From Planococcus donghaensis (lineage in GTDB: Bacteria > Bacillota > Bacilli > Bacillales_A > Planococcaceae), in the NCBI RefSeq assembly GCF_001687665.2, contig NZ_CP016543.2, positions 434,001-498,000 of the forward strand: DNA of 64,000 nucleotides, read 5' to 3'. The notes under the pieces are model-generated. The model had not been told where the DNA came from and made no database searches. It was given only the letters and a program-made list of their open reading frames with translations. Numbering within the stretch: position 1 is the stretch's first letter; every line of letters starts with the position of its first letter. Shown here piece after piece: positions 1,109-63,525 of the stretch. Both the position numbers and the translations under genes were made by a program.

Positions 1109-1193
1109 GGATGACTAGATGCTTAAAAGTGGACCTGAAAATAAAACAGAATGAAGAAAGTTTTATTAAACTGAATAGTAATGCATAATTTTC

Positions 1194-1711
1194 AACTAGG
1201 CTGACCACTTCGCTTTCCGTGGGCTCAGCTTCAGCCTCCTCGTCACTGAAAACCCATGCTCCTGCATCGCTGCGCTAGCTTCGTCGCAAAAGCTTGTCCT
1301 CGCAGGCTTCGGCCAATGCTATTCCTGCGGGGTCTTCAGCTTTCGCTGTCCCACAGGAGTCTTCGTGGACCAGCCCAGTTGAAGGCTTCTTGCTACAAAA
1401 AAAGTGAGATTCTTTACTGTGCTTCACCGTATAAATAACGTGTCAAAAGATTTTTTCCTACTCACTCCAGGATTCGGAGCACCTAGTGGCGAAGGGCAAA
1501 GATATGCTCCTGCATCGCTGCGCTAGCTTCGTCGCAAAGCCACTGCCCGAACTCCCTTCGGTCACTGACTTTCCAGCGGAAAAACGAAGTGGTGAGACCC
1601 CGCAGGAGCTTGCGACGAGGAGGCTCAGCGCGGAGTCCGCGGAAAGCGTCCACTAGGTGTGGAGAATCCCACATGCATACAAAAAAATGAGTAACTATTC
1701 TTTTGTCTACA
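1194..1711 (+). repeat. Composite hairpin repeat, element A
   Basis: First of three related elements in the window (B 53495-54058, C 63000-63492). Module 1 spans 1194-1380 and is bounded by an imperfect inverted repeat (AACTAGGCTGACCAC / GTGGACCAGCCCAGTT). A linker follows to 1469. Module 2 spans 1470-1669 and is bounded by GGATTC..CACCTAGTGG and its complement. The right end CTTTTGTCTACA (1700-1711) matches the ends of B and C and abuts a terminator. The left TGTAGACAAAG end seen in C is not recognisable here. Open frames in it are not genes. The 1109-1193 stretch before it shows nothing I recognise. Confidence 0.8.
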
Positions 1712-1715
1712 AGCA

Positions 1716-1747
1716 GAGAGCCTACCATTTGGTAGGCTCTCTTTTTT
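1716..1747 (+). terminator. Rho-independent terminator at right edge of element A
   Basis: Perfect stem GAGAGCCTACC / GGTAGGCTCTC followed by a T run. It sits 4 nt from the right end of element A, as terminators do beside elements B and C. No matching second copy was found on the left side of A. Confidence 0.8.
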
Positions 1748-1823
1748 CTAGTAATAATAATGTTATAAATTTGACGAATTGGTACGAATTTTTATCCAAA
1801 TGAAAATTATTCTCATTTAATCA

Positions 1824-18509: not shown

Positions 18510-18842
18510 CAACTTGTTGAACGGAAACAAGTCTGTTTGAGAGTAGAGCCTAGAGAAGATGAGAATAGAAGAGTGTATAAATCGAGGATTGAGACGAGTA
18601 GGCAGGGACATCTATTTAGAGAGTCAGCGGTTGGTGAAAGCTGATTAGATAAACTGCGCGAATGGACTTAGGAGAGCTGACCTGAAAGCGGAAGCGAGTA
18701 AGGGAGACGTAAGCCCTGCGTTAAAGGGAAAGGTGAAGAGCCTGTTTAAGTGAATGTAGAATTATTCTGCATTAATGCGTGGTGGTACCGCGGTTATAAC
18801 CCGTCCCCGCAATCAGATTGTTATCTGATTGCGGGGATTTTT
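18510..18842 (+). promoter_or_regulatory. Trp-specific T-box riboswitch leader
   Basis: The leader carries the hallmarks of a T-box that senses uncharged tRNA. An AGAGAGTCAGCGGTTGGTG stretch lies in stem I, and GAATGGACT carries a UGG (Trp) specifier at 18663-18665. The T-box sequence TGGTGGTACCGCGG is at 18780-18793, followed by a terminator from 18805. Uncharged tRNA-Trp should stabilise the antiterminator and let transcription enter trpD. Confidence 0.92.
18805..18842 (+). terminator. T-box regulated terminator
   Basis: Stem CCCCGCAATCAGAT / ATCTGATTGCGGGG followed by ATTTTT. It is the competing structure of the Trp T-box leader. Confidence 0.9.
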
Positions 18843-29613: not shown

Positions 29614-29616
29614 CGT

Positions 29617-29901
29617 TTGGACAGTAAATGTGGTGAATTGGCTAGTATTTCGTGGATTTGGACAGTATTTGAGTCGAATCGGACAGTATTCAACTCAAAC
29701 TGGACAGTATGTACAATTTTTTCCTATCTAATCAACCGCCCTTTAATGCCCAAGACCGGGAAAGCGCGAAGTCGCGCTTTCCGCTAAACCTATGTGAATT
29801 TTTGATTTGGACAGTATTTTGTGTGATTTGGACAGTAAACCATCTGAAACGGACAGTATTTCAGAAATTTGGACAGTATTCAGCCTCAACTCGACAGTAA
29901 G
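29617..29901 (+). repeat. 21-bp phased GGACAGTA repeat array
   Basis: Ten motif copies start at 29619, 29640, 29660, 29681, 29702, then 29809, 29830, 29851, 29871 and 29892. Eight are exact GGACAGTA; 29640 reads GGCTAGTA and 29892 CGACAGTA. Steps are 20 or 21 bp within each block of five. The extended consensus is about TTGGACAGTATT with variable sequence between. The 99-bp centre holds a strong hairpin. No convincing gene lies in 29573-29991; the open frames there run through the repeats. Confidence 0.88.
29759..29782. other. Central hairpin of the GGACAGTA array
   Basis: GGAAAGCGCGA and its exact complement TCGCGCTTTCC, separated by 2 nt, form an 11-bp stem between the two blocks of five repeats. 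No T run follows, so it is not a usual terminator. Confidence 0.75.
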
Positions 29902-53456: not shown

Positions 53457-53489
53457 AAAGCACGATCTCTTTTATAGAGATCGTGCTTT
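53457..53489. terminator. Terminator copy 1 flanking element B
   Basis: A 33-nt palindrome (stem AAAGCACGATCTC / GAGATCGTGCTTT) after the small membrane gene. An identical 33-nt copy lies at 54064-54096, across element B. Confidence 0.9.
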
Positions 53490-53494
53490 CAGGT

Positions 53495-54058
53495 CGCAGA
53501 CAAAAGAATTGTTATGTTTGTTAACGAATAAATATTCATCTTATCCTATATACTGGATCCTTCGCTCCATGCGGACGCTTTCCGCGGACGAAGTGCTGAG
53601 CCTCCTCGTCGCAAGCTCCTGCGGGGTCTCATCACTCCGTTTTTCCGCAGGAAAGTCAGTGACCAAAGGGACTTCGGGCAATGGCTTTGCGACGAAGCTA
53701 GCGCAGCGATGCAGGAGCATATCTTTGCCCTTCGCCGCATTGCGCTTCGGATCCTTGTATGATTACTCATTAATTCTCTTGAAAAGTGGAATCACTGGTT
53801 ACTCTCTCTAATTAGAGCTATATGCTAACAACCGTTCTGGCCACGAAGACTCCTATGGGACAGCGAAAGCTGAAGACCCCGCAGGAATAGCATTGGCCGA
53901 AGCCTGCGAGGACAAGCTTTTGCGACGAAGCTAGCGCAGCGATGCAGGAGCATGGGTTTTCAGTGACGAGGAGGCTGAAGCTGAGCCCATGGAAAGCGCA
54001 GTGGCCAGAACGGTTGTGGTTATACACAACTATACATTTTCAATAGACTTTGTCTACA
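53495..54058 (-). repeat. Composite hairpin repeat, element B (inverted)
   Basis: Element of 564 bp in the opposite orientation to A and C. Ends are CGCAGACAAAAG (53495-53506) and CTTTGTCTACA (54048-54058). The 200-bp module (53555-53754, GGATCC at both borders) differs from that of C at only a few positions. The 188-bp module (53829-54016) has a perfect 16-bp border CAACCGTTCTGGCCAC / GTGGCCAGAACGGTTG. It is flanked by two identical terminator palindromes. Open frames inside are artefacts of repeat composition. Confidence 0.88.
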
Positions 54059-54063
54059 GTCTG

Positions 54064-54096
54064 AAAGCACGATCTCTTTTATAGAGATCGTGCTTT
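54064..54096. terminator. Terminator copy 2 flanking element B
   Basis: Identical 33-nt palindrome to 53457-53489. On the minus strand it contains the last codons and stop of the 37-residue frame below, which suggests this is the ancestral copy for that gene. Confidence 0.88.
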
Positions 54097-61292: not shown

Positions 61293-62849
61293 ATGTATTG
61301 GTGCAAAATCGCCCGGACACCAGCTGAGTTTGAAGCAATTGCCCGTTTAAATTATGACACGTTTGTAGAAGAAATCCCTCAACACCAAGCAGATGACAGT
61401 GGGATGCGCATCGATCCATTTCATGAACAAAATACGTATTTAATTGTATTATCAGGAATGGAAGTGGTTGGAATGATTGCGTTGCGTTCTGAACGTCCAT
61501 TTTCCTTGGATTTAAAGATAGGGAAAATCGAAGCGTTGTTGCCGGATGCCGGTAAAGTGTGTGAAATTCGTTTGTTGGCGATTCGTAAAGCGCATCGCAA
61601 CGGACGTGTATTTTTTCTTCTAGCACGTGCACTATCGGATTTTTGTTTAGAGCAAGGGTTTGATTCGGCGGTTATTTCTGGCACGACCCGTCAAATGAAG
61701 CTATATGGGCAGCTCGGGTTTCGTGCATTTGCAGAACCAATGGGCACAGGAGAAGCTGTTTTTGTTCCGATGGTTACGACGCGTCGCCAATACATGGACT
61801 CTGTTGCTGCGAGGTTACAAGCAAAACGCAAGCTGTTTGTCCCAGGACCGGTTGCTTTGACTGAACAACTCGCCGATCCTTTCAAAGAAGCACCTATTTC
61901 ACATCGATCAGCGGCTTTTCGCGAAGTGCGGCAAGAAGTAGATCGCTTACTTGAGGATATGACAGACATGACGCCTCATCTATTAGCAGGAAGTGGAACT
62001 TTAGCGAACGAAGCCATGCTCGCACAAATAAAGCGGCTAAATTTAAAAGGATTAATTTTAGTGAATGGTGAATTTGGTAGACGTTTAGTCCGACAAGCAG
62101 AGCGTGTGAACTTGGATTATGAAGTGGTGGAAGAAGCCTGGGGGAAAGCTTTCGATTTTGAAAAAGTAGTAGAGTGCCTAGAAACAGAAGACTTTCATTG
62201 GGTTCTTATGGTTCATGGCGAAACATCTACGGGGCAACTAAATAACTTTTATGAACTAACGGATATTTGTAAGGAGCGAAATATTAAGCTTTGCCTGGAT
62301 TGCATTAGTAGTTTTGGGGCTGTGCCATTTTCGCTCGAAGAGGTTTGGCTCGCTACAGCGACAAGTGGCAAGGCCATCGGAACTTTGAGTGGTGTCGCCA
62401 TCGTCTTTGCAAATCATAAAATAGAGCCAGACAAAACCGTGCCTAGCTATTTAGACCTCGGCCTTTATGCAACAGACATTCCGTTTACATTTTCTGCGAG
62501 TCTACTGGAAAGCTTACATCGTGCATTAAAGGCATATCCAGCTCGCTATGAACTATTAAATCAGCGATTCCATATGTTGCAAGAAGATACACAAGATTGG
62601 TCAACCTTAGCCACTGGTTACCCAACCGCTCGAACTTTCCAAACAGTAGAAGATATTCGTTTCCTTGTTGAAGATGCTCATCTTTCAGGTTTTGAATTGC
62701 ATTCAGCAAGTGGTTATTTAAAAACACGGGAATTGTTTCAAGTTTCCTGCATTCAACCAGAGTTTGAAAAAGACTGGGAGCACTTCTTAGAATTCTATGA
62801 AGTTTACCAGCGCTATCATGTAAAAGAAAAAGCCCGTCACTCAATGTGA
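61293..62849 (+). CDS. GNAT acyltransferase - class V aminotransferase fusion
   Basis: Product of 518 residues. Residues 1-165 are a GNAT-like domain (RLNYDTFVEEIPQHQ, EIRLLAIRKAHRNGRVFFLL, KLYGQLGFRAF), similar in its start to N-acyl amino acid or autoinducer synthases. Residues about 185-505 are a class V PLP aminotransferase (FVPGPVALTEQL, LAGSGTLANEAM, VHGETSTGQLNN, DCISSFGAVPF), with Lys360 in ATSGKAIGT as the likely PLP lysine. ATG at 61293 behind GAGGAGG. The last codons (KARHSM and stop) are the left arm of the ancestral terminator. Confidence 0.85.
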   Translation: MYWCKIARTPAEFEAIARLNYDTFVEEIPQHQADDSGMRIDPFHEQNTYLIVLSGMEVVGMIALRSERPFSLDLKIGKIEALLPDAGKVCEIRLLAIRKAHRNGRVFFLLARALSDFCLEQGFDSAVISGTTRQMKLYGQLGFRAFAEPMGTGEAVFVPMVTTRRQYMDSVAARLQAKRKLFVPGPVALTEQLADPFKEAPISHRSAAFREVRQEVDRLLEDMTDMTPHLLAGSGTLANEAMLAQIKRLNLKGLILVNGEFGRRLVRQAERVNLDYEVVEEAWGKAFDFEKVVECLETEDFHWVLMVHGETSTGQLNNFYELTDICKERNIKLCLDCISSFGAVPFSLEEVWLATATSGKAIGTLSGVAIVFANHKIEPDKTVPSYLDLGLYATDIPFTFSASLLESLHRALKAYPARYELLNQRFHMLQEDTQDWSTLATGYPTARTFQTVEDIRFLVEDAHLSGFELHSASGYLKTRELFQVSCIQPEFEKDWEHFLEFYEVYQRYHVKEKARHSM

Positions 62850-62966
62850 AGAGTTAAGAGTATAAAACAAATTTATTTCCCTTTTTGAAAAAGAGTACTT
62901 CACACTATCGAAGGTGTATCCGCGGGAGCCATCCCCAAAGCGACCGGAGCGACTTGTTGCTAATGC
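62850..62966. other. 117-bp insert between terminator copies
   Basis: Lies between the 3' end of the fusion gene, whose last 22 nt are half of a terminator, and a second near-copy of that terminator sequence. It holds a GC-rich part (TATCCGCGGGAGCCATCC, then GCGACCGGAGCGAC), unlike its surroundings, and no gene. Possibly the remainder of an older insertion. Confidence 0.5.
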
Positions 62967-62994
62967 AAAAGCCCGTCACTCAATGTCACGGGCT
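62967..62994. terminator. Terminator-like copy left of element C
   Basis: AAAAGCCCGTCACTCAAT then GTCACGGGCT: stem GCCCGT(G)AC / GTCACGGGC. It repeats the 3' end of the fusion gene (62827-62849) and is repeated again at 63497-63525. Confidence 0.75.
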
Positions 62995-62999
62995 CAGAC

Positions 63000-63492
63000 T
63001 GTAGACAAAGTCTATTGAAAATGTATAGTTGTGTATAACCACAACCGTTCTGGCCACTGCGCTTTCCATGGGCTCAGCTTCAGCCTCCTCGTCACTTGCG
63101 TTCCTGCGGGGTCTTCAGCTTTCGCTGTCCCATAGGAGTCTTCGTGGCCAGAACGGTTGTTAGCATATTGCCCCAATTAGAGAGAGTAACCAGCGAATTT
63201 ATTTTCAAGAGGATTAATGAGTAATCACACAAGGATCCGAAGCGCAATGCGGCGAAGGGCAAAGATATGCTCCTGCATCGCTGCGCTAGCTTCGTCGCAA
63301 AGCCACTGCCCGAAGTCCCTTCGGTCACTGACTTTCCTGCGGAAAAACGGAGTGATGAGACCCCGCAGGAGCTTGCGACGAGGAGGCTCAGCGCTTCGTC
63401 CGCGGAAAGCGTCCGCATGGAGCGAAGGATCCAGTATAGAGGATGAGATGAATACTCATTCGTTAACTAACATAATAATTCTTTTGTCTACA
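63000..63492 (+). repeat. Composite hairpin repeat, element C
   Basis: Element of 493 bp with ends TGTAGACAAAG (63000-63010) and CTTTTGTCTACA (63481-63492). Module 1 (63042-63159) has the same perfect 16-bp border as B but lacks about 70 bp of its interior. Module 2 (63233-63432) is 200 bp, GGATCC at both borders. Same order and orientation as A, opposite to B. The flanking sequence just outside the ends is also shared (CTCAG and CTGAG). No coding potential is believed. Confidence 0.88.
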
Positions 63493-63496
63493 AGCT

Positions 63497-63525
63497 GAGC
63501 CTGTCACTCAATGTGACGGGCTTTT
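63497..63525. terminator. Terminator right of element C
   Basis: GAGCCTGTCAC / GTGACGGGCTTTT with loop TCAAT. It ends the minus-strand TPR gene. Joined to the 3' end of the fusion gene it would make a perfect bidirectional terminator, presumably the state before insertion. Confidence 0.85.

Follow-up and report, generated by a model that had tools for sequence, protein, structure and literature searches.

The preference of IS1182 elements for terminators is already known, as is the family itself. The closest described systems are IS1272, TnSha1 and TnSha2 of staphylococci, members of the IS1182 family whose targets, in the accounts cited, are stem-loops that include proven terminators and have no sequence consensus (PMC5678879, PMC4923244). 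IS1272 reportedly removes the stem-loop on insertion and makes no target duplication, whole-hairpin duplication being drawn in the same source as a hypothetical pathway b (PMC5678879), and TnSha1 is likewise described as deleting the stem-loop without duplication (PMC4923244). In Clostridium, the IS1182 element ISCbo5/ISbma2 was surrounded by hairpins at gene ends at all sites but one, and the sections of that report drawn on here describe neither a relation between duplication length and hairpin nor miniature elements (PMC3098183). Terminators upstream of IS transposase genes, that of ISBma2 included, have been proposed to limit expression from outside promoters (PMC2965389). Pneumococcal BOX (which is modular), RUP and SPRITE (PMC3049150) and bacterial MITEs in general (PMC10969869) are, like the elements analysed here, small structured non-coding repeats with IS-like ends, but they belong to other transposase families, and the relevant sections of these two sources describe no insertion into terminators with hairpin duplication. 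A survey of SLSs in bacterial genomes gives repeat families of Bacillus halodurans (PMC2267715).

In this work, we have analysed a window of 64,000 nucleotides of the Planococcus donghaensis genome, the whole stretch of DNA studied, which carries three copies, A, B and C, of a repeat with two hairpin modules. In all likelihood, A, B and C are IS1182-derived MITEs, as indicated by their ends, their targeting of terminators, the hairpin-centred duplication of the whole terminator, the empty sites and the leader-related modules. The copies as first described are the interior of a larger element, whose full ends, common to the elements, are CAGACTGTAGACAAAGTC (alpha) and inverted CAGCTTGTAGACAAAAG (beta); the limits in the initial annotation were too narrow, A extending to about position 1716, B occupying 62995–63497 and C 53490–54063. 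B and C have CAGACTGTAGACAAAGTC at one end and the matching inverted end at the other, and each is flanked by direct repeats, every copy of which is a whole intrinsic-terminator hairpin; the hairpin changes from locus to locus, and the two flanks of any given element have the same one.

Element C, complete and 574 bp long, lies on the minus strand, with the alpha end at 54046–54063, the beta end at 53490–53506, module 1 (188 bp) at 53829–54016 and module 2 (200 bp) at 53555–53754, both also on the minus strand, and it sits between two identical 33-bp terminator copies (copy 1, 53457–53489; copy 2, 54064–54096). Element B, also complete (503 bp, plus strand), has its alpha end at 62995–63012, a short form of module 1 (118 bp) at 63042–63159, module 2 (200 bp) at 63233–63432, both plus strand, and the beta end at 63481–63497; the 25-bp terminator copies at 62970–62994 and 63498–63522 are identical at 23 of 25 positions. 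As in C, these copies are given without strand. Element A (1163–1716, plus strand, left border approximate) is truncated: the left (alpha) end and left terminator copy are missing, and the right end and right terminator are kept. Its interior matches the first description, with module 1 (188 bp, 1193–1380, plus strand, used in alignment A1), module 2 (200 bp, 1470–1669, plus strand, inverted with respect to module 1 and used in alignments A2 and A3) and the right terminal repeat CTTTTGTCTACAAGCAG, the beta end, at 1700–1716 on the plus strand. The terminator hairpin with T-tract that was the target of A follows directly (1716–1749, plus strand), as the right copy only. The linkers between modules 1 and 2 measure 89 bp in A, 74 bp in C and 73 bp in B, within the 73–89 bp noted initially, and module 2 is exactly 200 bp in all three elements, as had been stated; the length of about 188 bp assigned to module 1 applies to A and C and is not that of B. 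The closing arms quoted for the modules are present, differ between A and B/C, and pair inside each copy. Elsewhere in the window, diverged repeats are clustered around TTTGGACAGTA at 29615–29900, with spacings of 21, 41 and 149 bases.

BLAST gave 66 matches to A in the window's own genome, and among 40 relatives searched, matches were present in 24 of 24 genus genomes (own included) versus 2 of 16 outside the genus. The exact end motif TTTGTCTACANNCTGA was found in 22 of 46 genus genomes, with a single occurrence of the reversed control pattern in all of them, and the genus set of 60 loci was taken around its matches. In a genome collection from which records near the window were possibly excluded, all 42 stretches with the 21-base beta end were named Planococcus or Planomicrobium. 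The 49 MITEs measured are 170–601 bp long and contain no transposase gene. A core lies 55–72 nt from alpha in 43 of them and its mirror near beta in 41, so that module 2, judged from sequence, is an inverted relative of module 1. Four loci of the window's genome (L045, L047, L052, L055) hold solitary core-family modules without recognisable terminal repeats. Copies of 2.0–2.2 kb (L039, L053, L134, L174) were considered as autonomous partners and rejected, because IS4-type genes are inserted inside the element. These copies, in the own genome (L039, L053), G014 (L134) and G015 (L174), are interrupted by IS4-family ISs, those of L039 and L053 being IS4 family by NF033592, with ends like CATG..GTCAACTTAAG; two different IS4-family ISs, each in two genomes, picked these elements. 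We presume the ends of these ISs to resemble those of IS231.

Where do the ends of the MITEs come from? ISs of the IS1182 family with these ends were found in the same bacterial family as the window's host. The transposase ORF of one of them, L230, matches NF033551 (IS1182) with 474.5 bits against a cut-off of 270, and also PF05598 and PF13751; the protein of another, L194, is split in two pieces that score 206 and 246.6 bits, each below the same cut-off. The sequence CAGACTGTAGACAAA forms the alpha end of 33 of the 49 MITEs and occurs at 33 of 68 IS ends, and CAGCTTGTAGACAAA, the beta end in 9 of 49 MITEs, is present at 3 of 68 IS ends; a G-initial beta-end variant, GAGCTTGTAGACAAA, occurs in 16 of the 49. 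DUF772 transposases were detected in 12 of 46 genus genomes, and transposase relatives in 87 of the 250 genomes covered by a protein search of the bacterial family and, with a full-length protein query, in 56 of 299 genomes of the class. The first 26 DUF772 loci, tried as a source of matching ISs with an exact search for the MITE motif, gave only diverged ends, and the ISs with matching ends came from the family-wide protein search. At L194/L220 (G021), an IS1182 IS lies between identical terminator repeats of 36 bp, and another IS-like end, CAGGCTGTCGAGAAA, comes immediately after it, which is a second element beside the same terminator. Like these ISs, the window elements have the same ends, the same type of target and a related leader hairpin, and differ from them in carrying no transposase and in their reduced size. 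We infer that an IS1182-family enzyme moved the MITEs. The genus, family-wide and class-wide searches detected no DUF772/IS1182 transposase in the window's own genome, which no longer encodes one; this was counted against present mobility.

Our scoring of direct repeats, anchored to the element ends, accepted duplications at 16 of 26 loci of the own genome, at 37 of 60 genus loci and at 34 non-redundant loci among 53 IS loci. When left and right flanks were taken from different loci, an acceptable repeat was obtained in 1 of 200 trials. Of the 56 genus loci that have candidate paired ends, 19 gave no acceptable repeat, and neither did 7 IS loci, five of which have intact ends with hairpins that differ between the two sides. 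L031 failed the repeat score, yet a related hairpin can be seen in either flank. The duplications directly abut the CAG/CTG ends, and 32 of the 34 in the IS cases are perfect. In this respect the window family departs from IS1272, TnSha1 and TnSha2, which are described as deleting the stem-loop (PMC5678879, PMC4923244), and duplicates the whole stem-loop instead. A search blind to the element ends recovered palindromic direct repeats of 18–33 bp, at most 2 bases from the IS ends, at 14 of 30 class-wide loci; the 14 come from 10 families, one of them (L376) being already in the set, and the remaining loci either were partial copies or had nothing beyond short repeats attributable to chance.

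The duplications are firmly centred on the hairpin. For each of the 87 accepted insertions, the presumed empty site was built from the outer flanks and one repeat copy and the best dyad was sought: in 78 of 87 cases the centres of duplication and dyad are no more than 0.5 bp apart (67 coincide exactly), the other 9 duplications are off-centre, and controls displaced by 4–10 bp were centred in 98 of 696. At most five pairs of these loci have a terminator in common, and each such pair possibly represents one event. An A- or T-rich flank accompanies 86 of the 87 insertions by a loose test. In several ISs, L227, L249 and L261 among them, the repeat forms a perfect stem except for its outermost base, which has no partner; this places the cut one base outside the foot of the hairpin.

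Duplication size ranges from 16 to 52 bp over the 87 insertions. Its scaling with the stem is firm in one controlled series, that of genome G174, and weaker overall. In G174, eight IS copies that are at least 99.9% identical carry repeats of 26, 25, 29, 35, 24, 23, 28 and 24 bp, all eight with an offset of 0 from the dyad centre, and duplication length correlates with stem span at 0.90 (core stem) and 0.84 (full stem). Over all loci, the correlation is 0.58, 0.21 and 0.45 by three definitions of the stem; the first two measures are confounded by the A/T tracts beside terminators, the value of 0.21 was reached by permutations, and the third definition gives only 0.04 within the own-genome set. 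Since the duplications are centred, and since near-identical ISs in one genome produced duplications of 23–35 bp, the target hairpin probably sets the length of the duplication. It is also conceivable, and in our judgement unlikely, that the elements are IS1182 MITEs whose enzyme sets a preferred range of duplication lengths that is merely dyad-centred, the hairpin having no part in the length. The median duplication, 26–27 bp in all three sets, and the weakness of the overall correlation, or its dependence on the definition of the stem, speak in favour of this alternative, against which stand the variation that follows the stem for the same IS in the same genome and the 52-bp repeat that the IS of L236 shows on a long stem.

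The modules themselves probably go back to the ISs. In L230, an end hairpin, a T-run and then a long hairpin lie between the IS end and the start of the transposase gene, the long leader hairpin folding with a z of -5.9, and a core resembling GCTTTCCGCGG is found at most 200 nt from an end in 25 of 34 ISs. The best matches of the six window modules to the IS leader have 79–88% identity over 40–84 bp. The modules would thus be inherited IS1182 leader hairpins, with their paired arms presumably inherited from the hairpin of the leader, and the shared ends together with this related leader hairpin point to an origin of the elements as IS1182-derived MITEs. The part of the MITE interior that derives from the IS is the subterminal leader region only. 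As in the IS attenuators, a structured leader with terminators separates the transposase gene from the IS end; the relevant section of that account does not tie attenuators to miniature elements or repeat modules (PMC2965389).

The initial annotation had taken the compensating changes in the arms as a sign of selection for the fold, and proposed a conserved structured RNA, or extruded DNA, selected for a host function. The folds are stable: module 1 has a z of -4.8 on the plus and -5.5 on the minus strand, and module 2 of -3.4 on the plus strand, with none of 200 shuffles as good in each case. For module 1, alignment A1 joined element A to 34 of the 49 MITEs, leaving out 4 duplicates and 11 that lacked either the core or the 3' motif. 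In these 35 sequences with 24 pairs, 92.9% of cells are paired, 8 pairs show two-sided change (5.3 in shuffles, of which 4 of 500 had at least as many), and covariation scores 0.166 versus 0.068 +/- 0.007 in shuffles (0 of 500). For module 2, alignment A2 comprised element A and 24 of 34 available rows, the rows left out including L153, which has a poorly pairing arm; A3 added to A2 L153 and four near-duplicates, five rows with misplaced motifs being excluded, and the covariation score passed from 0.376 in A2 to 0.344 in A3, versus 0.138 +/- 0.013 in shuffles (0 of 500). In the 30 sequences and 17 pairs of A3, 87.8% of cells are paired and 11 pairs show two-sided change (0 of 500 shuffles as high). 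Sliding the partner by 1–3 columns reduced the paired cells to 22–45% in module 1 and 24–49% in module 2. The check by covariation on multi-copy alignments, as the initial annotation had suggested, was thus borne out in part: the scores exceed shuffles in both modules, and the further standard pair types do not (13 versus 13.6 in shuffles for module 1, 405 of 500 at least as high; 22 versus 19.5 for module 2, 53 of 500 at least as high). Because the structures were drawn from the same sequences and the copies are related, a shared ancestry that inflates the scores, covariation supports selection for the pairing and does not prove it.

The pairs also show a bias in wobbles, which was counted in raw cells and not in independent events. 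On the alpha-to-beta strand of module 1 (A1), there are 32 A.C cells, G.U on the other strand, versus 5 G.U, and in the inverted module 2 (A3) 6 A.C versus 16 G.U; as module 2 is inverted, both biases point to one strand, the antisense of the IS leader. No such bias is seen at loop positions (C to T in 19 of 840 cells, G to A in 16 of 525), and a hand count of about 22 versus 4 independent wobble events was excluded as evidence. A host function for the RNA or DNA fold would agree with the covariation in both modules, with the stable folds and with wobble cells strand-biased consistently across the modules. The copies, however, are insertions with duplications and empty sites, the interiors of the 49 MITEs vary in length from 170 to 601 bp, two of the five covariation measures fail to rise above shuffles or hardly do so, and no Rfam family reaches its gathering score for the modules; we regard this function as decidedly improbable. 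At gathering scores, the only Rfam match in the window is a T-box leader at 18576–18811 (RF00230, 113.3 bits), and relaxed matches in four loci, all below gathering scores, were treated as chance. What stands of the original argument is that the arms co-vary in both modules; the step to selection for the fold was too narrow for a mobile element, and covariation is no proof of a host RNA function. In the IS1182-derived MITEs, the module structure may have been retained in the role of an IS leader that controls the transposase, for use as a substrate in transposition, or through palindrome-correcting mutation.

Besides the target duplications, the family shows empty sites: sister genomes lack the element at the sites of two of the three, A and B. 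At the A site, L301 (G014) and L302 (G015) run from the same upstream gene into a single terminator, the element being absent. At the B site, L272 (G015) and L273 (G052) consist of one terminator with no element, and L271 (G014) is also without element B and has one intact terminator. L271 and the window have in common the remnant of an older insertion, in front of which stands a first copy, broken, of the B terminator; in the window, this broken copy and a remnant of about 120 bp lie to the left of B, at 62830–62970, and they are present in G014 and not in G015 or G052. The B-site terminator was apparently hit twice. Independent local duplication, envisaged initially as another origin of the arm differences, does not agree with copies that are insertions at sites empty in relatives. 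For the same sites, it could be argued that recombination or slippage doubled the terminators and that the elements are adjacent to them by chance or homology, and in five ISs (L196, L223, L232, L233, L253) the ends are indeed intact and the hairpins on the two sides differ, which is what inter-copy recombination would give; with duplications lying directly at the CAG/CTG ends and often perfect, a hairpin of its own at every site, and empty sites that keep a single intact terminator, we hold this to be very improbable. REP/REPIN-like repeats, which are also imperfect intergenic palindromes in many copies and depend for their movement on a RAYT (HUH) transposase, have a negligible probability here, since no Y1_Tnp (PF01797) was found in the own genome by a search that was positive in 5 of 14 controls, terminal inverted repeats with target duplications fit a DDE element, and the IS1182 ISs have the same ends.

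We propose, as a rather likely interpretation, that this DDE family gauges its target by structure and cuts at the feet of the hairpin, that the duplication has no fixed length and takes in the stem-loop with roughly one further base at either end, that the terminators stay functional, and that the MITEs carry two inverted copies of the leader hairpin. The transposase would recognise the extruded target hairpin, strand transfer would occur at the 5' feet of the hairpin, and gap repair would then copy the whole stem-loop to both sides, so that the hairpin would set the length of the duplication. With an intact terminator on both flanks, insertion should disturb the host little. In the open-licence literature, we did not find this MITE family or a duplication length that scales with the hairpin.

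Target-duplication length is usually taught as a fixed property of the transposase. Here it probably follows the secondary structure of the target, and structure-directed transposition becomes testable, engineered hairpins of differing length being expected to give duplications of matching length. If this is true, a family known above all for deleting hairpins would also supply, in nature, the counterpart of the pathway of hairpin duplication that was drawn as a hypothesis (PMC5678879). A mobile element could spread in this way while leaving terminators intact, and the hairpin repeats of the Planococcus/Planomicrobium genus would gain an origin.
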